A stretch of DNA of 64,000 nt from Daphnia pulex (lineage: Eukaryota; Arthropoda; Branchiopoda; Diplostraca; Daphniidae): positions 4,469,001 to 4,533,000 of the forward strand of contig NC_060022.1 of assembly GCF_021134715.1 (NCBI RefSeq). Reading direction: 5' to 3'. Each line of letters begins with the position of its first letter. The stretch's first letter is position 1. Made by a program: the position numbers and the translations under genes. The notes under the pieces are model-generated. The model searched no databases and was not told the DNA's origin. It saw only the letters and a list, made by a program, of their open reading frames with translations. This document shows positions 13,053-61,106 of this stretch, one piece after another.

Positions 13053-13597
13053 AGCTCATGTTCATCGGTAAAATCATTCTATCGAATATTCACTCCATAT
13101 CAATAACTTGAGTTATTCGTATCATAATCTAAAAGTTGGTTTTCCGCATGTCTATTTCATCAATGTAATTGAACTCAGAAATTTCGCGACATTTGTTTAG
13201 TTCACAGATACTCATTTTCTGTTGTGTTCTTGCTATCGTCTAACTTTACTTGAACTTTCTAAAGACGTGCTTTGACCATCCATTGAAATTCTACAAGTTT
13301 TTGTATCGAAATTATTTTAGAACTAATTAATAAACAAACAGTATAACATAACAGAATTTATAAAAATGTTGATTTAGCCTTGATTTAGATTTCGTCAATT
13401 TTGTATTGGGCGCGTTTTTGTTCAGTGCGAGTCTGACAAGTTTGTTATTGCTGTTCAGCAACAACCTTCGGCGTCTGCGTAGTTTGGTGTTCTGCTTCTG
13501 CCCACATTGCACATAGTTCTGATCATAATTTTTGAATTTAGAGAAATATTAGTCCAAAAATAGTTGAATCAAAGTTAAGAGACGTCAATCCTTGACA
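13053..13597. other. Spacer between TEX14-like gene and SF3A2
   Basis: 545 bp, AT-rich, between two genes on the same strand. It must contain the 3' UTR of the upstream gene (a cluster 'aattaataaac' near 13323 could be a poly(A) signal) and the SF3A2 promoter. No coding signal is visible. Confidence 0.5.
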
Positions 13598-45083: not shown

Positions 45084-45830
45084 TCAGATTTTGAGTGCCA
45101 TCAAGTGGCCCACTCTGTGCCCTGGGATATTGGCCAATGGAAAGTCCTCATCGAACTTGAATTCGTAATACTTGACGGTTCTCAGAATGTCGAAGCCAAA
45201 CTTAGAGGTCACTTTTGCCGTGTACTCACTAAGGGCTTCTGTCCAAACTGCTCCCGCACCTTCGGCCCGCGCAATTCCCAGCGAAAATTCCACCAACTTT
45301 GTAGCTAGACCTTGGCGAGCATAGCGATCATCCACAGCCAGAATGCTCAACTCCATTTTCAAATCCGTTTTGTAAATGTCAAAGACGTTGACATCTCGGT
45401 TGATGTACTCGAGCACAGCCTTGTGCAATCGGCCGACGGGAATCTGAGCTGGGTTCGAACTTTTACTGGCGTAGGGCTCCAATGATGGGCCAACATCCGT
45501 CGAATTCTTTGTCTTGAATTCGTTGATGGCCACTGCCACGATTTGCTGGTGTCGGCAGACATCCCGCACGAGCAGCGAATGAGGGGTTTTGACGCAATCA
45601 CGGACGAGATCTTGTATCCATTCAGGTCGCTTGGCCTCTTCCGATTCGTCATACAATCCCAGTTGGCGGATGGGTGCCAGCGGAAAGAAATGGCGCAACA
45701 GAAATTCAAATATCTCGTCAGCTTCATCCGCTCGTGCTACGTGGGTAATCAACCGCTGTTGTCTGTTGCCGTTGTTCGCGACAGGCAGCTCCAATTCGAG
45801 TGGAAATGTCAACGCGTTGTCTCCTGTCAT
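45084..45830 (-). CDS. GNAT-family N-acetyltransferase, arylalkylamine-NAT-like, copy 1 (248 aa)
   Basis: Predicted to transfer acetyl from acetyl-CoA to an amine substrate. A single coding exon; the ATG at 45830 sits two bases after a good acceptor (aaatattcag), so an untranslated first exon lies upstream. The fold is marked by the N-terminal ADEADEIFEFLLRHFFPLAP helix region and by motif A, ILAVDDRYARQGLATKLVE, which carries the acetyl-CoA pyrophosphate loop (R-Q-G-L-A). This is followed by the helix GIARAEGAGAVWTEALS and the C-terminal segment TVKYYEFKFDEDFPLANI. This layout matches insect arylalkylamine N-acetyltransferase-like proteins used in amine inactivation and cuticle chemistry. 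A paralogue lies 4 kb upstream on the same strand. Substrate is unknown. Confidence 0.85.
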   Translation of the reverse strand: MTGDNALTFPLELELPVANNGNRQQRLITHVARADEADEIFEFLLRHFFPLAPIRQLGLYDESEEAKRPEWIQDLVRDCVKTPHSLLVRDVCRHQQIVAVAINEFKTKNSTDVGPSLEPYASKSSNPAQIPVGRLHKAVLEYINRDVNVFDIYKTDLKMELSILAVDDRYARQGLATKLVEFSLGIARAEGAGAVWTEALSEYTAKVTSKFGFDILRTVKYYEFKFDEDFPLANIPGHRVGHLMALKI

Positions 45831-48800
45831 GTCTGAATATTTCAAAATGGGAGAAAATCAAACAAGCAAATGTAACAAATAAGTCTATTAAGAACCTATT
45901 TTGTAGTGTGAATAATACACTGCTGACCTGAGCGTACCGAGTATTCGATGCGAACGTTGTGTCACAACAGATGAATGCGGAACACTGAAATTTGACCAAA
46001 TATGTTTCAGATTTAAAACCAGAAACTTGTTATAGGGCGACGATATGTAGGACTGGACGGGATTTGCATAATAAACGAGGAGAAGAATAAAGGTCTGACT
46101 ACGATCCAAAGTCTGATTCAATCAGAGTCAAAGTTTACAAAAAGATTGTGGTTATTACGCTACGACCATAGCAACAGACTGTTATCAGCTATAGTACAAT
46201 ATAGGAATCACTGTTTTACGAGTTTCATGTTCAGTATTATCATCACAATTGTTTCTTTACTCAATTGTACAGATAGCCAAAAATCAGAAGGAAATGTCCT
46301 CGGTGCTTGAAATGGTATAGCTTGCGTCTAAACATGTTCAAGCCAGAGTTTAGTAACAAGTAAACAGGAAAAACGACACTCGAAACTCTTTTCCTTCACC
46401 GCAAATCGACGGAGATGCGCTACCCCAGAAAAGGATCCTGCAGTATCGCAAGTTGGTATAGCTCATCTCTCACGTCCGGTCGTCGGACAGCCGGCCATGA
46501 GATTCTTTGCAGTACTACCAATTAAGGGATGATAAGATGCAAGGATTTTTATTTTCAAGAGATCAGACTTCATTTCTTCGTTTACCTTGTATACAGTTCT
46601 TACTACATTTAATGCTCTTTGGATCCTACTCTGATTTCGTAACGGGGAATAACGTCAACTTACATTGTCAAAGGTTGGAACAGCTCAAAAGTGACAAGTC
46701 ACAACGACGAAAGTCAATATTCTCAAAATGCCAATGCTCTTCCAGATAATAAATACATACCGATTTATGAAGTCCGTCCTGTTAAACTTCAGGTCAACCA
46801 GCTAAAAAAAACTCGTGACCATGTTACGTTGGGCAATCAAACCAGAAATAAACTCACCAATCTTTCACTTATTCCTTACTTGGTCGCACTGTCACGCAGA
46901 TCAAAACACTGACGACCAATCACTTTTGCATTCCACTTGTGCCACAGTTGTTTTTTTCTGTCTGACGTTCACAAGTTTTTAGTTGCCTGCAGCAAAGTTA
47001 GCAGACTAAATATCTTGCCTTGGCCATCTCTCATCGGCATCATTGCCATTCAGCTCGATGCTATCGCCCATTTCTGACAAATGTTTGGAATTTCTTTCTG
47101 TGGCTGTCACGCTGTCAGACGAATATCTGCAAGTTGCACGTTGATCATTTTTGTTTTTCAGCCAAAAAAGAAGAGATTGGCATCAATTTGAATGAGACGA
47201 GACGGAAGTTTTGAATTAACTGATGATGGCAACGCTTTGAAAGTATTACACAAGGGAAAGGTGAGACGGCGCGCGGTTTCAATTGCATTTCCGGACACAC
47301 ATAGTATATAAGTACTGGCTGTTTAAAAGAGAAAATGAAAACTGAGAAAATAAGAATGATGAGACATTGGGTGTCCGATTGGGTGTCGAGAAATTTTTAC
47401 GGAGGCTGCTTCTCCATTACGTCTCTATCATTATACTGCTCTTCGAACCACGTGCTTTGTTGGCCAAAATAATCAATGGCCAATTTGGGAATTTGGGTTG
47501 CCTCTTAATTAGAAGCGATTTATTTTTATTTTCCGAGAATTGCTCTAAATTTGTTTAAACTACTGGCAGTCGCCACTCGCCATCAATTTCGTATTGCAAG
47601 TCTTGTTGATTGATTGCCGACATCAATTATTTTTGGCTGTTGAATATTGATCCTTGCGGTGACTTGTTTGTCATGTTTTGATTAAATGATGATGGATTGG
47701 GTTTGAGATAACACTAGGCTACTTCCCGTCTTTTTCTTATCGATTGCGTAGAAGGGCCTGTGTTTATTTCCTCTTGGCTTACAAGAGGGTCATGGGGGGG
47801 TATAATTAGGGCGGGTTTTCGGTCTTCTTGTCGGTTTCATACACATTTTTATTTGGATCTTTTCTGTCCAGGGTGGGCTTAATCAACTTGGGATTAAACC
47901 GCTTTTATCGTTTTTTGCGGTTTGGTTTTAGCCTTTGCGGAAGGGGTCAATTTTTTGGGGTGGGGGTCAGTCGAGACATACCAAACAGAAATGGTATTAG
48001 ATTTTAATTAAAAATTATTCCCTCAAGTTATTCCCTTGTCGTTTTGGATTTTAAGGGGGGGAGTTTGATTTTTATCATTTCTAATTTCTATCGATATCGT
48101 AAGCTTGCTGATTAGAAGAAAATTAGACAAGAGTCGTCTGCTATTTTTAGTTGAAAATTTCGAAAAAGTCAGAGACATGGTTAGACAAAAAGTCCAAGGC
48201 TTTTATTGATATAGATTTATTTGTTTTTGATAATCGCCATACCCCGTGCTGTTTACCGGGTAAATAAAGCTAAGAATGCAAATAGAATGATTGTGGGAGC
48301 TATAGAAGAGTTAAACCTGTTCCAAATTTCCTGGCTAGCATTAATCCGTGATTGCCCTGTCGATGCATGTAAGTTTATTTACACTATAGTAACCATTTTC
48401 TTTTTTTGTAGATTTGAGGCCTGAGCCAGCCATCATAACCACACAATATGCAAGTTTTTTCTTGTGCAGGTGTTTACCTGTCCTCAGCCACAATCTCAGG
48501 ACCATCGCTTGGGTAATGATTTCCTCTACTTTAATTGACCTGTGACCTACTAGATATTTTAATGCTGTACATTACCTATTACATGTAAACCTTCCATTCT
48601 CCCATTTATTGAAAATTTGGGTTTACCCAGTGTCGTGTTTTCAACTTTCCCTGACTTGTTGTTTCTGTCAATACTTTTCGTAACCTATTTTTCTTTTTTT
48701 CATTTAGATACACAGCATCCCATTGCATTGGAAAACTACCGATGTCGGTCGAGTGATCTCTTCTTGCCCTTTCTTTAAATGTCGTCGTGTACGCCCATGT

Positions 48801-49490: not shown

Positions 49491-50183
49491 CTATAGACGA
49501 CGAGCCATAAAAACTGCGACGGGGTGCTCGGCCAGCAGGTCCGTGAGGTGGGCTAAAGGCTTCTCACCTTTGAATTCGTAAGTTGCGTAATCAATAGTTC
49601 GGATCGTCTCCAGGCCGTTTTTGGCAGCGACTTTGGCCGCGTGTTGACTAACCGCACACACTTTGACAGCTCCGGCGCCATTGGCCTTAGCCAAGTCCAG
49701 CGACAGACTGACTAACGTGGTTGCCAGGCCAAGCTGACCGTACGATTTGTCGACCGCCATCATGGCCAGAGCCAGGATTTTCTTCGTGCCGAAGGTTGTG
49801 AACAGATCAATTCCCTCCTCCAGGTCGCCTAGCAACGACATAATCAGCCGTGGCTTTTCGTTTGCTGGTGGGGTGCTGAGAGCTTCGTGATGAAGGGCCC
49901 CTGGTTCTTCTAATTCGTTGAGTCTCACAGCGGCCAGTCGGCCATCCGAATCGCGTACCGTTAACGAGACTGGTGGATCTTTGACGCAGCCCGATAAATA
50001 GTTGTGCAAACCGCCGTCGTCGATCGGTCCGTTGCTGCGGTTTACCAAATAGCAGTTGGGCGACGTCGAGAAAAAGTGCTGCCTTAAGAATTGCACCATT
50101 TCGTCCAAATCGGCCGGACGGGCGAAATCAATCGTAAACACCTGACCGTTTCTTGCGACAAAATTTCTTGGAAACGGTTCCAT
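49491..50183 (-). CDS. GNAT-family N-acetyltransferase, arylalkylamine-NAT-like, copy 2 (230 aa)
   Basis: A paralogue of the gene at 45.1 kb: same strand, single coding exon and layout. The ATG at 50183 follows an acceptor (ccaattacag) by 13 bases, so a non-coding first exon is likely. Shared landmarks: an N-terminal helix DLDEMVQFLRQHFFSTSP, motif A ALAMMAVDKSYGQLGLATTL (acetyl-CoA loop Q-L-G-L-A), the helix DLAKANGAGAVKVCAVSQ and a terminal RTIDYATYEFKGEKPLAHL. The two proteins are clearly homologous but far from identical, so the duplication is old or the copies diverged in substrate. Predicted cytosolic acetylation of an aromatic or other amine; substrate unknown. Confidence 0.85.
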   Translation of the reverse strand: MEPFPRNFVARNGQVFTIDFARPADLDEMVQFLRQHFFSTSPNCYLVNRSNGPIDDGGLHNYLSGCVKDPPVSLTVRDSDGRLAAVRLNELEEPGALHHEALSTPPANEKPRLIMSLLGDLEEGIDLFTTFGTKKILALAMMAVDKSYGQLGLATTLVSLSLDLAKANGAGAVKVCAVSQHAAKVAAKNGLETIRTIDYATYEFKGEKPLAHLTDLLAEHPVAVFMARRL

Positions 50184-52161
50184 TATTTTTGGCACTGTAA
50201 TTGGTTCAAGTTTGCAAACGAGAGCTTATACGTATTCATGAATTTCGAAATGATGGGGGGGGGGCTACAGTCGGTGAATAAAGAAAAGCCCTACCTGACA
50301 ACGAGAAATCCTGGTTTGTTGCGTGAAGTAATTGGCCAGCTATATAACTGTACGCAGATTGTACGACGGTGTCTAAAAATAAGATTTCTTTCACCGAGAC
50401 TGCCTGGGGAATGAGTGACTAAATCAGTCTACGTGACGCCCTGCCAGACACTCACAAACAGCCCTAGGAATCAAGGGTGGAAAACATACCGAACAGGAAA
50501 TCTTGGCGATACAGTAGTGACCCACTTACGACATGTTTCTCCGATCGATCCCATTCGTCCGCTTGGACTTTTGTATTTGCATTTCTGGTTTGTGTGGTTC
50601 GATCTGAAGCTTTAATTGCAGATCGCTAGATGGCTCCATCATCCGTACGAGACTTGGTTTTCGTATCAATTGCGCATTTTTGAAAAAACAAAATGTTTTA
50701 TCGACACTACTACTACTCATTCGCAATTGATTTATCATTGCTATTGTTGCACAATCCAATTAAAAAGCTGCCATCAATCGATCCTGCGCATATCGCATGA
50801 CGTAACGCTCGTCCGCCCCGACCTTGGATAGATCATCGGATAAATGAAATGGATATGTTAATAGATACCTGCGAATGATGCGCCCCTTCGGAAACTAGGC
50901 CGAAAGATTTCGATGGCCCAGAGAAATGGAAACAAATTAACTTGGGTCAAACAATTTTGTCGATTCACTTGACTATAAAAGAGTAGGGAACGGTCAAAAC
51001 GCAACGCAGGGAACTGTAAGAGTGTCGTATAACCGTGCGGTTTTTGTTCGAGCCAATTATTGAATCCATACCAACGCATTAAAGAGCCGGGGTGGGGGAC
51101 TAATCGACTACGAACGAGGCCAGCAAAGAAACCGTGGATAACGATGAATTTGCCTATAGTGAGGACTACATACACAGCGCTATATGCTCCCTTCACTATC
51201 AAGTAATTTGAGCCGAGTTTCCATCCGAACGATAGGCGATTGTTCAGCAGTCTATAATCAAAAATTCCTTCCAATGCAAATCTATTATTTGCTCAATTTC
51301 GTGATTGTCCACCGTGGGATAAACGTTCCGTGTGTTCTTTGTTACGTTTTGATGAACGGTCAGCATCAACGTCGTCCGCTGTAGACTCGTTTTCCGTCGT
51401 GTGGAATGTTGAATCCGGCGCGCGCGGAAGTATCCAGTTGTTGGCGTTGGGGGTTTCGCTGGTGCCAGGTTCGACTCTGCCCATGAGAATTCTCCTATTG
51501 CCCGTACGAGTGTCGGCGATCGTCTCCCTTTTATTACCCGAGTCTTCCCTTAAAAGTTGTTTGTTGCGGACGCTTAATAGTTACCATAGGGGAAAAACGA
51601 GTCCAGCGAAAATAAGAATCGGACTCGACTTACAACCAAGCGATCGTTTAGCATTTCAAGCATCCTTTATTGAGTTTCTTTTGATTGATCATGAATTTGA
51701 CATCTTTTCTGATTGATTGGCGCGGGATCGCGGGAAGGCGGCACCAGCAAACACACAAATTACAACGAAAACAACAACAACAACAACAGCAAATTATTGC
51801 GGCATTCAACAGGAGAGACACAACAGCACTCAAACAAACAAAACAATCCGGGGTCGTTGGGAATTATTTACTATATTAGCTATATGTGGAATAATTGTTT
51901 TAATTTTGTTTTTTATAATCGTTAATTTAAAAATTTGGAGGAAAAAAATAATTGTGGTGATGGAATCATATCGCGTCCGCTGGTCAAAGCAGAGAATCAA
52001 AACAAAACTATTTGTAAAAATCGAAACAAGAATTGGAAGCTCTCAATTTCACGAACAAACAACAATCGTTTTGCGGAATAAAAGGTACTCTGAAGTGATT
52101 GGCAATTTTCCTCTTGACAACAACAACAACAACACGGGCAGCGTCTAAGGCACACGTCGGT
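50184..52161. other. Gene-free spacer upstream of acetyltransferase copy 2
   Basis: Nearly 2 kb with short ORFs only. A (CAA)n run lies near 51770-51790 and another, (ACA)n, near 52119-52133. The left part may hold the promoter and first exon of the acetyltransferase, and the right end the 3' UTR of the insulin/relaxin-like gene. No family motif is visible. Confidence 0.5.
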
Positions 52162-53676
52162 TCACAGGAATTGCAGGTTGCTGTACTGAGGCGTTCTGTA
52201 GGTGGGCAGGATGGTCAGCGCGTCCTGTTCTAAAGATTCGTTGTAAAAAATTTCGGGAGTCGAATCGGACGGAGTCTCCGTTGTCGACAGCGGCTCAGAC
52301 GGTTGAGAAATCCATTCCATGACATTAGCTGCGCTCAGATCGGAACTCTTTGGCAACTCGACTGTTCTGTAAAAGATATATAGACATTTTTGTTTTTAAA
52401 AAGAGAAATTATAAAAATGAAAATGTCTGGACGGTTTGTTATTGACGAAAAAGCTGCGCCATGACGCACTGCAATTCGACCAGGACCCCGAAAAGAATTA
52501 AATTTTTTAAAAGCAACTGGGCCCCCCCACAAGTCGCTGACTACTTTGTATCCGTACGTGACACCCCCTCTTACAGGAGCGTGAGTGGTGTATTGGCCGT
52601 TAAAGTCGTCCATTCCCTCAAAAGAGTTTGGAGCGGCTCCTTCATGATCATCAATCACGCAGAGTGTACTAGCTGAAATATTATTACTAAATGGAACTCA
52701 AATGGCGAAAAACTGGCCCACCCATCGTGCACAGAGGTTGTTGTCCTAATTGATGCGAATTATTGTGATTATAAATCATTCATTTGCTTACGTTTGATTC
52801 CTGACTTCTTGGCAGAAGCTTTCCAAATCTTTTTGGGTGCAACCGACTAGACAGCATTCGTTTGTGGTGGGAGATCGACGATTTTCCAGTTCCTTTTGCG
52901 GTTTCAAATCGTTGCCTATTGTCGAATAGAAAGTAGAACAAAGACAATCGAATAATGAATTTGCGATCAAAGAAATCAATTATGCATAATCCTATATCCT
53001 TGGACATATTTTTAGAAGAAAACTTTTGATTCATTCAAACTCGATCAAAGTTCATTTATTTTGCCTCCGGTTCACTGGAATGGCAATCTCGTTTTAAATG
53101 TCAAACAACGTCCTCTTTTCTATTCCTCAAAGTATATTACCCCCTTCATTAAATAGTCAAATTGCCATTCATCCCAAAAAAGGACAGTTTTATCAAAATC
53201 AATATTTGTGATAAAAGTCTAGACAGAAAAAATCTACAAGTGCCTTATATACGATAATGTTCATTGAATGAACAGCCTTTGATTGAAACACTTACCTTCC
53301 GTTGGTTCGGCGGGCGTGGGGAGCCAATAACTCTTGTAGACGGCACAGACAGCTTCTAAGGCCTTGCTGAATTCCGGGCCGCACCATTTAGTTTTCCCGC
53401 TGACGTTGCGCTTGTGTATGGGACTCGACTGCGTCAAGAAGGCGAGGGTCGCAAGCACCAGCAACAAAGCCATCCAACACCTGTGTGAGGTAGAGACACG
53501 ACAAAGAGAGTGGCCAGTTACTATACTTTGTCCAGCACTTTCCCCCGTACGCCAGGAGGACAAACCGGCAAACATTTTTGGCCAACCGGCTAAAAAGTTG
53601 AGGGGCGTTTTGATGGAGCCATCAAACGAAATGTAAAGACCAGCACTTACCTCCCAACTGTTGATGGAATGATCAT
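52162..53676 (-). CDS. Relaxin/insulin-like peptide precursor with long C-terminal extension, 179 aa, four exons
   Basis: A secreted peptide-hormone precursor. Exons: 53651-53676, 53296-53480, 52792-52915, 52162-52366, in frame (540 nt with stop). A signal peptide covers about residues 1-27 (MALLLVLATLAFL core). The B chain is KWCGPEFSKALEAVC (Cys42, Cys54; 11 residues between, as in insulin). A connecting segment ends in the dibasic site NRR (82-84), followed by the A chain ECCLVGCTQKDLESFC (Cys91, 92, 96, 105; the canonical CCx3Cx8C). The A chain looks relaxin-like, but the RxxxRxxI receptor motif of vertebrate relaxins is absent from the B chain. About 74 residues follow the last Cys, acidic and Ser/Thr-rich, recalling IGF-like precursors. 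It may act through a receptor tyrosine kinase or an LGR; undecided. A second peptide gene lies 7 kb upstream. Confidence 0.85.
52575..52672 (-). other. Possible alternative exon of the insulin/relaxin-like gene
   Basis: A 98-nt segment in the third intron is bounded by a good acceptor (aatatttcag) and a consensus donor (gtaaga). If included, the reading frame meets TAG at once, ending the protein at residue 112, right after the A chain. That would give a peptide without the C-terminal extension, or an mRNA for decay. It may equally be a chance pair of sites. Confidence 0.3.
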
Positions 53677-53780
53677 TTCAGTTCCGCTCGTTTCCTTCCC
53701 TTTTTTGTTTCAAACCCAAAAAATATAGGGGGTTCGTGTTACCCTACAGATGCAGCAGCGAACACAGCAGCACGTATTCA
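53677..53780 (-). promoter_or_regulatory. TATA-like promoter of the insulin/relaxin-like gene
   Basis: On the minus strand 'ccctatattttttggg' (about 53715-53729) contains TATATTTT about 45 bp before the ATG. This implies a very short 5' leader if used. No initiator was confirmed. Confidence 0.35.
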
Positions 53781-56700
53781 AGCGATAACCCGAAAAAATA
53801 ACAACTGAGCGGCGAATGAGAAAGAAGGCTAAAGGCTTTAGCTTTTTCGGTCCCGCTCTTTGATTTTGTTTTGATTTCGCGTTCAACAATTTCGTTTTTG
53901 GCGAAAAGATTCAAATCAAGTGAGGAGGGCGTTCGTGCGCGATGAGATGCGAGTGGGCCAAGCAACTGAGACTCCATCGGCGAGCGCTTCCTCTTCTTAT
54001 TTAATATGTAGATCGACTGTCATTGGGTCGCTTTGGTGTTGGCGGCAGCACCGCTGCGCTCTCTGTCCAGCAGCAGCCCCGTGGCACCATCAGCACTTGC
54101 TATTCAGTTGGTATAGGATATAGAAAGCAGGGCCAGCAGCTGGAAGAGTGTAATTTTAGCAATTTTAGATCAGATAATCAAATAAACAAAACATCGTTCA
54201 ATAGTAGCCAATCAGGTGGCCCTTCCGGGTATATTAGAACGGGGTGTGTGAGAGAAATAAAACGTGTTTGTTTTTATTTTTCTAAAGCAATTATATCGAA
54301 ATGGAAAGGCGATAACAGTTCACTGAGAACGGATGGCCTTATTGGGAATTCAAATCAAAATATAAATACTACTCCAAGTCCCTTTTCAAAAGTAGTAGCT
54401 AGAGCTATTAGATGTATACACTACTACTGGCTACAGATGAGTGAATGAAAGGCACGCCCTTGTTTCTAGGAAACTGAAAGAATCCCGTTTTGTTTAATGA
54501 TATTCCCCCATCTGGTTTGGCCCGTGCGGACGACAAGCGGACGCGGGCGGGTTGTGGTTGGGCTTTGGTCACGGATGATGTTGAAATTTCGATCAATATT
54601 CGTACACGCGCGCTATCGTATCGTATCTTATCGAACGTTGAATTTTCCTTTTTTTTTAATTTTTTACTTAAATGTTCCATTAAAGAAATTTCGTGTGTAG
54701 ATGATGCGCGGCATGATGCACCAGTCATGTGTTTCCCAATTTGTTTTGCCTTTTTGGTCGATGGAAAAGTTGAAACGATTTCAGTTTAAACCGCGCGAAA
54801 TTCTCTCATTCGCTGGCCGGTGTCGAAATCCGGTTGACGAACGGCGGATCTGATTTCGCGACAAAGTCTCTTGGCCGGCGAGGCGGTCCAACAAAAGAAT
54901 TAGAACCGCAATGACACGCCACGGAAGGCCGCCAGAGTAGTCTTGTGACGAAATCCCCCCCAATGCAGCGCGCGCGAACACCTTTGAGTGCCGACGAGCA
55001 AAACCGTACGGAACGAATGAAAAGCGACAACCCATTTCACGGTACCGACGACTATAAGACAGGGCCAAAGAGAATAAGAAAAAAAGAGACGAAGAGACAC
55101 CGGTCGGCCACTGATTGATAGTCGCCGATTGACCATAATGGCTTTCTCGAGTCTGGCTGCAAAAATAAGCGATTTTTGCTGTTGTCTAGCGGGCGGCTAA
55201 AACACTTTGAGCTCGTCGTCTCTTTCGCCACCGTGCAACTATCAATTAGCATAGAGCCACCACCACCACCACCGAAAAACAAAAGAAAAGATTCGAAAAA
55301 TAAAAATAAAAGATCCCGGCGATTTTTGGGGTTTTTTATTTTATTTTACGTTCACCGACATACGGTGAACGCGGCAAGGTTGGCAGAAATGTGTGACGTC
55401 ATTTGAGCAACAAAAAGATTTTAAAAAAACTTTCTCTGAATGGAATAGCGCGAATCGTTATCCACGAAAAAGAAGGCGAAATTCAACAAATGACGCGAGA
55501 TGTCCAAAAAATATGAGTTTACTATTTTTATTTGACACTATCGAACGCATTTGATACGTGGCATGAACGGGAATATATAGCCAGTAAATTGCTATGACTG
55601 TTCATCGTTGAACCGGCCACTTATTGGCCGTCCGAAACAAGGTTACACATATATCCCAGCATTTATTCCCCTACCGAGTTATTTGATTTGAGTTTAATTT
55701 TTCTTTCTGGGTTATCGTATTAATGACGCCAAGTGATAAACAGCGGCTTTTTAACGACTTGACCTCCCACACGAATCCGGCTGATATTCCAATCGAGTCG
55801 ACAGTCCCAAAATAGATCCCGCCAACATTTTGATTCGTCTGCTGGTCTTGCAATTTCCGAGGAAATTCGAAATTTGCATCCATCAGAGTAACGCGATGGG
55901 CTTCTTCGGACTTCGAGCGCATCTATATATACTGTGCATTAAGCATCAGTGTTGTGATCAATTCGGCACATGTAATGACTCTCGCAGAAATCGAATTTCA
56001 GCAATTCTATTTATACGAAAGCTTATTCCTTGTATGTCATCTGGTTACCGAAAATAATGAGTAAATCTTATGTCCAATGTCGAATCCTTAATGACCTGTA
56101 TGCACGTGTGGTTTGAATTACAGCTGGTGACCGCCAAAAAAGTACACGCATGTGTACACGTCAATATTCAACAGAAACACAGAAATAGGATGACAAAAGA
56201 TTGTTTTTGTTTTTTGAAATTATGATTATTTAGAGCAACAACAAGGTTATTCATGCTAAGCTGGGTTTACTCTCATTAGGCAGCATCAGTTTGCTGGCTA
56301 AGAAGAATTTTTAAAAAGCGTGTATGCTGCGTTGGCTGAAAATTCTACTCGATCGATTGAGCAAATGGCAACAGTGGCGCTTGAATAATTATTCAAACGA
56401 GTGGTAAATTTCGCGGTTGTTGAATTATTTTCAATTTCCTTTTTTTTTTTTTTTGAAAAAAGTTTTCCAATCCCGCTCGACTATTCGGTCGGTTGCGTGG
56501 GCAGCAGATGGCGCGGGATTCGAATAAAACTGAAAAATTGATGGGCGCCAAACTTTGGATCTCGAATGTCCTTTTTGTTTTCTGATGATAAATTTTGAGT
56601 AACCCAAGTCTCTCCGATATAGACTGACGCTGTGAAATATTCAACATTTCATCAAATTAATAAAACACGAATGAGCTCAACAGATGCCCGGGCCGCATTT

Positions 56701-59700
56701 TATCATTGGGGAAACAAGATCATCCAAAATCTATTGGAGCGAGGAAGAAAAACTCTCTAGAAAATAAGGAAACGATTCCATCTATCTGGTATCGAATTCA
56801 ACATTTAATATCTACGAGAAAGATAAGCCGGCTTGCACGTCCAACTTTTGGTTGCTGCGGCTTTTGATTTCCCTTCTGCGGCTTTTTATCAATTTTCAAT
56901 GACTCTTGCGACCCAGCTTTCGTCGGCCGTCCAAGATGTTTGACGATCGTGACGTCAGAAATGTCGAAAAACTTGTGCGTGTGCAATCCAACCAATATTG
57001 CAGGTATGCTCTTCTTGTTTAAGGCGATCAATGCGTGGGCTGTGGCATCAGCACGTAGACATCTGCAATTGTAAGCGAAATGCCAACGTTGTCTACGCAT
57101 AACCAGCTCATGTAATATCCAGCTGCATTTTCTCGTTGCAGCAAGTAAATGAAATGGATGAGCGACAATCAACAACAAGAAATTGCGGTTGTTGTTTTCG
57201 TGTTTTGGGCCGCGTGCCTTCATCATCAGCCCAGCTGCTGCCCCATTCATTTCGTGCCAATCATTTCCGTCCCCGGACGGGTAAAAACAACAACTTGTTA
57301 CGCCACGGGGAAAAATGAAAGGAAAAGCGGAACTGAATTCGAAATGAGCGCAGAGTGGGGGCCAGCAGCCGTCAAAGTAGATCCGTCACGAGATGGGCGG
57401 GGAAGAGCCCTTGAGTGACTTGTCATCCTGGATGAGTCACGCCGAAAAAGCCTTTGAGGATAACCCGTTCGAATTTTTTAAAAGGAAAAATGTGTTTTTG
57501 ATTCAATCAAGGAATCACCTACTACTTGTGTTGCCTGGTCCTGTTGTGCGTGTAAATATGACGCCCTTTGAGGACACGCGGGAGAAACCTTCAGACATTG
57601 AAGGCGGGGCTATGGGAATGATAGAAGAGTTGTGTAGACTGGCTGGCCGCCCAGCTCAAGGAAAAAGCCATATTATCCACTTGGAACGCTGTCGACGATT
57701 CGTGCCCGTCATTGCCGTTAGAGGTTTTTTGGGGTTGCATTTTATTTGGTTGAAATTTATTATTATTATTTTCTTTTTTAAATTCTTTTGAAATCCGCTG
57801 GTCCTTGGACTGGTTAGATACGAAACCCCTATGATGTGTGTGTGTTTAGGCCAGCGCTGCGTCGTCACATCTATTTAGGACTCTGGCGGGATTTTGAAAA
57901 CTCCCGCCATATCGTTTCAAGTATAGCTTCACTTTCACGCAGCATTTGAGAACTCGCGCAAAGCGATTAAACAAAAAAAGCCAGAGCGCGCCAATCCGGT
58001 TTCGGTCGGTTCGTCCGAAATCAAAAGCTGCTGCTGAACTAGTTGAAATGATGCCTTTGCGAATTCATCCTTCAGTACATACTACCACACACCAGTTTTG
58101 GGTTGTTATCGACGGCTCGATCGAATTCTTGCGAAGTGGAGCGAGCGGGAAATAATCCTCGAGAAATTATTTCATTTGCTCTTAACGTAGTCTGGAGAGA
58201 CGATGAAGCGGATTCGACCAGTTTATCCAGGGATAAATGCGCATCGTGAAGGCGAAATGGATTTCACGTAACATTTAGAATGTCGTCAAATTCAATGGCC
58301 TATAATCTCTTGAAGTTTGAAAGAACAACGAGGAAGTCCTTGGTGCACTCTGCCGTCGACACACACACGTGTGTGTGTGTGTGTTAATTGAATAGATTAT
58401 AGAGCGGCACTTCCTCGGATCTTTATCGCGATCCGTTATAGACCCACGCACAGGTGTGTGTGAGTTTCCGGACCCGTACTAGATGACATGTGTATACCCG
58501 CTCGTTAGAGAAAGAATATCAAGATAGATCTATACGATATCGTTGATATGGAGAACAATTCTATTGCCTCACACCTCTAAACCGAAAGGCCAATGACTTT
58601 TTGTGTGACTAACAAAACACGCAGAGGCGGTAGCAGCTATGCTGACGCATATCATTAAACGAGGCCTATGGAAAAACCAAACACAAAACAAAACAATTTC
58701 GTTACTTATAGGATTTTGACCCCGAGCGGCATTGTGTTTTATACATGTCCGGCAAATGGAACCTTGAATAAAACAAACAGGTTTAGCAGCCAGGATGCAG
58801 GAACTCGTGTAGGTGAAATCGCCAGAAAAGAGCAGGAAGTTTGGCGGGACGATTCGAATCGAGACAACAAGAATTGCGGAAGGAAATCCAAAGGTTGTTG
58901 AATGGCTTCTCTTATACATATATACCTGGTGCCAAGCTTTCTTCCGTATTCAGACAATTTGCCTATCGTTTTTTTTATTATCCTACTGAAGAAGAAGAAT
59001 GTCCAAGTCCGACCTTGGATGATGGCCACTTATTTGACGTAACTGTCGTGGAGAGAGAAAAAAGAGGAAAAGGCAATTTAGCGATGACCTAAACGCATAC
59101 GGGTGTATATACAAATGCCCCTAAGGGCGTGCGGATGAACCTTCATCGTCCTTTTATAGAGACAATAGCCCAAAAATGTATAGCAGACACACACACACAC
59201 TCAACTGTGTCGATTATAGTTATAGAGCGGCCTCCTCTCACGAAAGTTTTCTTGTGCAAATGATTACGTATTCATCTTCTTCTTTCTTTCTGTTTGTGCT
59301 GCTTTCAGAAAAGAGAAGCCAGCCTCAGCATCTTAAATAACCCGCCGGTCCTTGACTAGAAAACCAACCGAGTCCTTGAACTGCCAATTTTATTTTTTGT
59401 TCATCAGGCGAGATGTTGGGAGGAGTTATTTCTTTGAGTTATATATCGTCGTGGATACATGTTCACGTTGTGTGCCCTTTTTCTCTCTATCGCGGGAAAA
59501 CATGACGAGGAGAGATAACCACAATCAACTCGATGTGTTGCTGCAAAGCCAAATGATTTCCTAGTCGCGGCCAAATGCGCGTAGTAGTTCAAATGCGACA
59601 TCATATCCCGTCATCAGAACGTCACTGGGAACATTGGGAAATTTTTTTTTTCAAATTTAATATCTCCATGGCCTTTGGGTTTTTAATTCCGTGTTTACAC

Positions 59701-60549
59701 TAGTCACGATGATACATAATCTATTGGTTTTTTCGAGCCTTGTCTAAAATTATTCTAGAAGGTGTTTGTTGTTGTTGTTGTAATATAGCTTTTGGATTAG
59801 AATTATAATAATAACCCGGACGAGATGCAATTTGTTTGTTTGTTCGTCACAAGTTTTTTTATTACGACATCAAATTTGAAAGTTTACATTATGACAAAAT
59901 TCCATCGTCCGCGGACCGGTCGTAACGAATAAAAACCGTTTCGAGTTGAGGACATAAACTTTTGGTCAAAATACATACATTATATAGTTTAGTTGTGTGT
60001 TGGGTGGGAGAGAGTTTTTTTTTTTTAAGTTTTTTTTTGTTTTTTCTTTCAGACAGGAATAAATAGAGAGATTTGAACAAGATTGGGCGCAACACATACA
60101 CTAACCAGGAGGGAGCTTGCTTTGGCAAAGGATTTTTTCTTTTGTTTCATGTTTCTTCTTTTTTTTTCTCCTTTGTGAACTTTCTTCTCTCTTGTCTTGA
60201 GTCGACTTCTTGACACTTTTCCTAGTAGTAGTAGTAGTAGTAGTAGTTTTCTTTTCTTTTTGTTTGGCTGTACAACTTTTCCCGTTTTCTTCCGGGGGGG
60301 AATTTTGTTTTGTGTTATCTTCGCGTGGCGTTTAAAATTTTTTCTTTCTTCCAGGCCCAGGTGACAAAGGAGTTATGTGTGTGGTATGCAAGTGTGTCTG
60401 TGTGTTTTGTTTCCTTCTTCGTGTGTGTTTTTGTTTGCGTGTAGTAATGGAAAGTCAACAATGATGCTGCTAGATATACAGTGGACGAAATCTTCCTAGC
60501 TTCATTCTTCGACCTGTGATGGATGTCGGCTGGTTTTCTTCTTCTTTTT
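53781..60549. other. Gene-free region between the two peptide genes
   Basis: 6.8 kb without a supportable gene. It contains TGACGTCA palindromes (about 55394 and 56950), a (CA)n/(TG)n self-complementary run near 58360-58384, a (TAG)n run near 60226-60247 and T-rich tracts. ORFs up to about 150 codons (for example 56798-57250, minus) show no family motif. Its right end should include the 3' UTR of the next gene. Confidence 0.5.
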
Positions 60550-61106
60550 CTAGCGGCAGAATTTGGATAGAGGCGGGCAGCCTTCGTTGGGACAGCACTC
60601 CTTGAGGATGCGCCGGATGTAGAGCAACTCGATCTCCTTCTTGACTCGGCTGCCCGACTGGTGGTCGTGGTGGTGGAGGTCGACCACTTCGTCCAGCATG
60701 TTGGTCGACAGCCGCTTGACGGTCGGGCTGAGCACTTCCAGCCCGAGCAGTTGCGAGTTCTCCGATGAGTGGTAGGCGCACGCCCTGCGCATGATGTCGC
60801 GGACGACGCGGAAATTGCAGCCGCCGTGGCGGGCCCGGTGAGCCGCCACCGTTCCCGACGCCATGTAGCTGCCGCCAATCAAGAAGATGACCCACCAAAT
60901 TGTTAGAATTTTTGCCTGCATTCAAACAAAGAATATGAGTGAATAACAGAATGAATGAATGAAGAAATAACGACAAATTTCGAGGGGATTTTTTTTAGTT
61001 TTTAGTTTTTAGCTTTAGTTTGTTGTATTTCAAACGGGACTGTCGGGATTTGGGGTTGTTGGATATAGTTTTTTGTTTGGAAAGAGACAGATTTCAGTAC
61101 CTGCAT
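60550..61106 (-). CDS. Second insulin/relaxin-superfamily peptide precursor, 123 aa, two coding exons
   Basis: A predicted secreted hormone precursor. Coding exons: 61101-61106 (ATGCAG) and 60550-60915. A hydrophobic signal (ILTIWWVIFLIGG) precedes the B-chain-like GGCNFRVVRDIMRRAC (Cys35, Cys48), then a His-rich connecting stretch (VVDLHHHDHQSG) with basic sites VKR, RVKK and IRR. The A-chain-like tail is ECCPNEGCPPLSKFC (Cys109, 110, 115, 122), with one residue (Arg) before the stop. Six cysteines in 2+4 order, the dibasic site just before the A chain and the overall size support an insulin-superfamily member. The spacing is unusual: 12 residues between the B-chain cysteines and CCx4Cx6C in the A chain. 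It may be an arthropod gonadulin- or relaxin-like peptide; the subgroup is not decided. Confidence 0.7.

Follow-up and report, generated by a model that had tools for sequence, protein, structure and literature searches.

An arthropod IGF gene and a probable gonadulin-like neighbour in the Daphnia pulex genome

Results

Two insulin/relaxin-superfamily precursors on one strand

The window, which here means the whole 64-kb stretch of Daphnia pulex DNA that was analysed (C6:4469001-4533000), contains, on its minus strand, two precursor genes of the insulin/relaxin superfamily, with the coding region of the left gene at 53676-52162 and the ORF of the right gene at 60921-60550. Regional scans extended over 264 kb (the window and 100 kb on each side) and genome-wide searches over 13 contigs with 133,188,837 bases. 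A preliminary description of this DNA had reported two precursors on one strand, each with a B-like cysteine pair, dibasic sites and A-like cysteines, and all of these were found in the sequence. It had also placed the genes 7-8 kb apart; they are indeed adjacent, but the distance between their coding regions is slightly smaller, at ~6.9 kb, and the end point of 61106 given there is explained by a second ATGCAG before a GT at 61106-61101. The longest ORFs in the gap between the two genes have GC3 values of 0.35-0.52. The coding features, in window positions, are:

53651..53676, minus strand: left gene, coding exon 1, start of the signal sequence (begins with ATG, ends at a GT donor; the frame stays open across all four exons)
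53296..53480, minus strand: left gene, exon 2, signal sequence, B chain C-x11-C and start of the C-domain (sequence read)
52792..52915, minus strand: left gene, exon 3, following a phase-1 intron, rest of the C-domain with RR and A chain CC-x3-C-x8-C
52162..52366, minus strand: left gene, exon 4, C-terminal tail with LTILPTY
60550..60921, minus strand: right gene, probable gonadulin-like precursor, 123 aa in one ORF
60778..60819, minus strand: right gene, B-like segment C35..C48 with 12 residues between
60556..60597, minus strand: right gene, A-like segment C109-C110-x4-C115-x6-C122
61101..61106, minus strand: right gene, possible alternative coding exon 1, ATGCAG before GT (splice to 60915, protein identical)

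The left gene is an arthropod IGF

The four coding exons of the left gene, separated by introns with GT..AG ends, encode a product of 179 aa with a signal-like N-terminus, dibasic sites at KR32 and RR83, and a C-terminal extension of 74 residues after the sixth core cysteine, most of it on exon 4. Exons 1 and 2 together end in phase 1, and the C-domain intron is thus of phase 1, as stated for insulin-type genes (PMC8286064). Three residues separate the second and third cysteines of the A chain (Cys 92 and 96), a spacing described for the termite aIGF (PMC10148640). The tail motif LTILPTY agrees in T, P and Y with the consensus GTVx1Px2(F/Y) reported for the last exon of insect aIGF (PMC7357564), with I in place of V and L in place of G; beyond this partial match we see no clear difference from an arthropod IGF, and the arginine-rich segment with two extra cysteines of insect aIGF is absent from the left gene. 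Against Pfam Insulin the A-chain exon reaches 21.4 bits (E 0.00052), below the 23-bit cut-off. Judged from the core spacing, the phase-1 intron and the long tail exon, the left gene is an arthropod IGF, and the IGF-like tail and intron layout speak against a place among ordinary brain insulins, the outcome that the preliminary description had named as contradicting its reading.

The left gene is very probably the published Dappu_Ilp-1, since it has 180 codons with the stop, contains three introns and lies apart from two relatives that are linked to each other. According to Boucher 2010 (PMC2978223), Dappu_Ilp-1 has 180 aa and 3 introns and lies on its own scaffold, and Ilp-3 and Ilp-4 lie together on another scaffold, ~102 kb apart; Ilp-1 is also among the three Daphnia aIGFs counted in PMC13322756. 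The AT content of the left gene, 48.9% in the coding region (57.0% over the gene span), disagrees with the 55.88 printed for Ilp-1 (Boucher 2010).

A tblastn-type search located two relatives of the left gene on the plus strand of C7, at 983188 and 1208677, with best E values of 0.0085 (near 983 kb) and 1.3e-4 (near 1,209 kb), the latter being also a Pfam Insulin match. The cores of both C7 genes resemble the left gene and their tails have FLPR[HY]G in common, which by sequence may correspond to ILPTY in the left gene. They are probably Ilp-3 and Ilp-4, although their spacing of ~225 kb disagrees with the ~102 kb of the 2010 assembly.

The genome-wide Pfam Insulin search gave matches at loci on C1, C9 and C7, and since the aIGF of the window is missing from the match list, this census is incomplete. 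The best match in the genome (50.9 bits) is an insulin-like gene at C1:3742780-3743025 on the plus strand, with a B chain C-x11-C and an A chain CC-x3-C-x8-C; Boucher 2010 described four D. pulex ILPs (PMC2978223), and the C1 gene may be one beyond these. Another insulin-like gene, at C9:5140639-5140716 on the minus strand, is possibly Ilp-2; by eye, its B chain looks interrupted by an intron and lies behind a long N-terminal part.

The right gene has a six-cysteine precursor layout

The right gene has the layout of a secreted precursor, with a hydrophobic N-terminus, from which alone the signal sequence was judged, and six cysteines in insulin order, B then A, at positions 35, 48, 109, 110, 115 and 122, together with dibasic sites at RR45, KR69, KK94 and RR103. 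The canonical insulin-like cysteine spacing of x11/x3/x8 is replaced by x12/x4/x6, and a C-domain intron is absent, as the precursor is a single ORF within which no usual GT[AG]AG donor occurs. GC3 of the ORF is 0.84, and its codon bias shows in a score of 0.13 per codon; the median over the 331 regional ORFs of 100-199 aa is -0.051, and the 15th best of them reaches 0.143. With thresholds chosen after the right gene was known, a single-ORF six-cysteine core was counted one time in the real 264 kb and one time in all of 60 order-3 Markov simulations of 264 kb each; a full precursor, defined as an ATG, a hydrophobic stretch and a nearby stop, occurs in 0 of the 60. At the sensitivity of our searches, the right gene is single-copy in the genome.

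Comparison with known families gave no direct assignment: the right gene matched no Pfam family, Insulin included, and had no meaningful match among PDB sequences. Single-sequence AlphaFold models were of low confidence (mean pLDDT 56 and 60), and the insulin fold was absent among the fold matches of these weak models. The cores themselves were compared with cysteines fixed. The A-like core scored higher against the C9 insulin than 1000 of 1000 shuffles, and its scores against the C6 gene, the two C7 genes and the C1 gene were reached by 22, 6, 4 and 4 of 1000 shuffles, respectively. For the B-like core the numbers were 390, 572, 45, 847 and 38 of 1000 against C6, C7 (two), C1 and C9, so that its similarity to the neighbouring aIGF does not exceed that of shuffles (390/1000). 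On this comparison with the ILPs of the genome, the A-like end is insulin-like and the B-like end weakly so. Against Drosophila Dilp7, the A-like core was reached by 62/1000 shuffles and the B-like core by 18/1000.

Search for a relaxin gene

A third member had been suggested to lie to the right of the window or in the gap, but we recognised no such gene in the window or the 100 kb flanking it on each side. The loose A-chain scan of the 264 kb in six frames (CC x3-4 C x6-9 C) returned 14 rows, two of them being the left and right gene; the other 12, four of which are one poly-Cys reading of a repeat, were set aside by eye and have no B-like pair in the same ORF. Genome-wide, no relaxin was recognised with a single Dilp7 query. 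Its best match (C8:3963143, E 0.124) was rejected after reading six frames and the DNA, being a short open frame with stops and without an acceptor, and the second lies at C1:3568763 (E 6.3). What we describe is thus a duo and not a demonstrated trio.

Neighbouring genes

To the left of the window, at ~33-50 kb (about -50000 to -33000), C6 carries two ORFs of 607 aa with an identical start and in opposite orientation, with vWD-like neighbours on each side. By eye, this looks like an inverted pair of vitellogenin-like genes. Inside the window, two GNAT acetyltransferase-like ORFs lie on the minus strand at 45090-45857 and 49497-50225, scoring 23.6 and 20.3 bits against Acetyltransf_1 (cut-off 20.7).

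Two RXFP-type receptor genes

The genome contains two loci in which an LDLa module is followed by LRRs on one strand, at 9312.6 to 9306 kb on C8 and at 13367 to 13362.6 kb on C10, both picked by eye as LDLa-LRR pairs among the LRR_8 matches listed (at least 167). Each reads as LDLa, LRR exons, hinge and seven-helix region. In both cases relaxin receptor 1 is the PDB entry that the seven-helix region matches best (229.6 and 237.7 bits), far ahead of the next one, the follicle-stimulating hormone receptor (87.8 and 102.8 bits). Intron positions have been proposed as signs of receptor type, a phase-1 intron in TM2 and one in TM5 marking the LGR3 type and a phase-0 intron after TM7 the LGR4 type (PMC11863921). 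Read by eye, both genes have the TM2 phase-1 intron, only the C10 gene has the phase-0 intron after TM7, and in both the TM5 intron reads phase 2, unlike the LGR3 sign. On these intron phases the C8 receptor leans to LGR3, and the C10 receptor is mixed.

No pair of LDLa and 7tm_1 within 30 kb was seen by eye among the matches listed (at least 149 for LDLa, from the best 150 of 262 candidates, and at least 167 for 7tm_1), and further RXFP-type receptors beyond these two may exist. Two LRR_8 matches of 37.3 and 37.0 bits, at C10:13341994 on the plus strand and C10:13365893 on the minus strand, lie 24 kb apart in opposite orientation, and the C10 receptor may have an inverted copy.

Discussion

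What kind of hormone does the right gene encode? Gonadulins are six-cysteine peptides too variable for easy recognition (Veenstra 2020, PMC7357564). The same study reports that gonadulin adjoins aIGF in a cockroach, a termite, a stick insect and spiders, that no gonadulin was found in species without LGR3, and that relaxin also belongs to the array beside aIGF, relaxins showing much the strongest conservation of all protostome ILPs. We call the right gene gonadulin-like because it adjoins an aIGF, is unlike the other ILP genes found here and occurs in a genome with two RXFP-type receptors. In its six-cysteine order, its strong divergence, its aIGF neighbour and the presence in the genome of RXFP-type receptors, possibly of the LGR3 or LGR4 type, it is similar to gonadulin and Drosophila Dilp8. 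It differs from these in the 12/4/6 spacing, the absent C-domain intron and the same-strand order, and these three misfits keep us from classing it as an established gonadulin. On balance, we consider it probable that the adjacent pair consists of the Ilp-1 aIGF and a gonadulin-like (Dilp8-like) hormone gene.

Could the right gene instead be a lineage-specific, fast-evolving tandem ILP copy in Daphnia, which is no gonadulin orthologue and might signal through an insulin receptor kinase? The aIGF genes of Daphnia have undergone repeated duplication, as the C7 relatives illustrate (see also PMC13322756), the C9 insulin comes closest to the A-like core of all sequences compared, and neither intron nor orientation ties the right gene to gonadulin. 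However, a tandem copy sits poorly with a B-like core that resembles the neighbouring aIGF no more than shuffled sequence does and with the lack of any other copy in the genome, and it leaves the RXFP-type receptors in need of a ligand; published gonadulins, moreover, are equally diverged (PMC7357564). We regard this explanation as rather unlikely.

Two further explanations appear highly improbable to us. A strongly diverged arthropod relaxin of the Dilp7 type, serving as ligand of an LGR4-type receptor, would suit the position, as relaxin too is an array member beside aIGF (PMC7357564); it would also suit the phase-0 intron after TM7 of the C10 receptor, a sign of the LGR4 type (PMC11863921), and the B-like core, for which few shuffles (18/1000) matched the score against Dilp7. 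Yet the single Dilp7 query misses the right gene, despite relaxins being so well conserved, and the A-like core does not stand clearly above shuffles (62/1000). Equally doubtful is that the ORF is no hormone gene at all and has arisen by chance or encodes an unrelated small secreted six-cysteine protein: the missing Pfam Insulin match, the off-canonical cysteine spacing and the low-confidence model without an insulin fold match would agree with this, but the codon bias of the ORF, the absence of any full precursor from the simulated regions, the significant A-like core and the position beside an aIGF all argue against it.

How does the gonadulin-like reading compare with known arrays? As in Blattella, Zootermopsis and Timema, an aIGF has a probable gonadulin-like neighbour, here at ~6.9 kb; unlike in these insects, no relaxin was recognised in the 264 kb scanned. 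In locust and other insects aIGF and gonadulin are arranged tail to tail (PMC8220825), whereas the Daphnia genes stand head to tail, both on the minus strand. The suggestion in the preliminary description that this is part of an aIGF/gonadulin/relaxin cluster thus holds for one clear member, the aIGF, and for one probable member, the gonadulin-like gene; the proposed third was not recognised in the 264 kb or with the Dilp7 query. Given the possible LGR4-type receptor, a relaxin gene may still exist that was missed, has moved or has diverged. The pair may well descend from an old aIGF/gonadulin/relaxin array from which relaxin would have moved, diverged or been lost; with some hesitation, we lean towards a branchiopod remnant of the old bilaterian array, in which the gonadulin lost its C-domain intron and shifted to 12/4/6 spacing while RXFP-type receptors persisted.

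By analogy with known hormones, the left gene product would be secreted, its insulin-like core followed by a long tail, and is predicted to signal via insulin-receptor tyrosine kinases and thereby to influence growth. The right gene product, as its sequence suggests, would be secreted and perhaps processed at its dibasic sites, giving B- and A-like parts joined by three disulphides. Again by analogy, its predicted receptor would be a G-protein-coupled one of the RXFP/LGR3 type, and candidates for such a receptor are present in the genome.

The left gene has already been named, and its genomic context is, according to the legend, the subject of Figure S7 of PMC13322756, which may already show the right gene; we make no claim to be the first to describe it. 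In the titles and abstract openings of the literature searched, we found no description of a Daphnia gonadulin. Where the text seen mentions gonadulin and Daphnia together, it does so in reference titles or in a sentence on decapod receptors (PMC13322756, PMC8177520, PMC11506343, PMC8449533); both words also occur in PMC9552230. The main text of PMC7357564 does not name Daphnia, but its spreadsheet holds Daphnia sequences, since PMC13322756 cites the Daphnia 'aIGF-2' to it, and may hold a Daphnia gonadulin as well.

Finally, gonadulins are hard to find by sequence (PMC7357564), and linkage to aIGF offers a good handle on them. Hormones of this superfamily have been studied functionally in Daphnia, where knock-down of ilp-3, a relative of Ilp-1, reduced the predator-induced neckteeth (PMC13322756). 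The right gene would offer a clonal laboratory animal for testing whether gonadulin and LGR3 connect gonad, growth and moulting, as has been proposed. If the pair is indeed a remnant of the old array, the linkage of aIGF and gonadulin predates the split between insects and branchiopods and has outlasted a near-total loss of sequence similarity.
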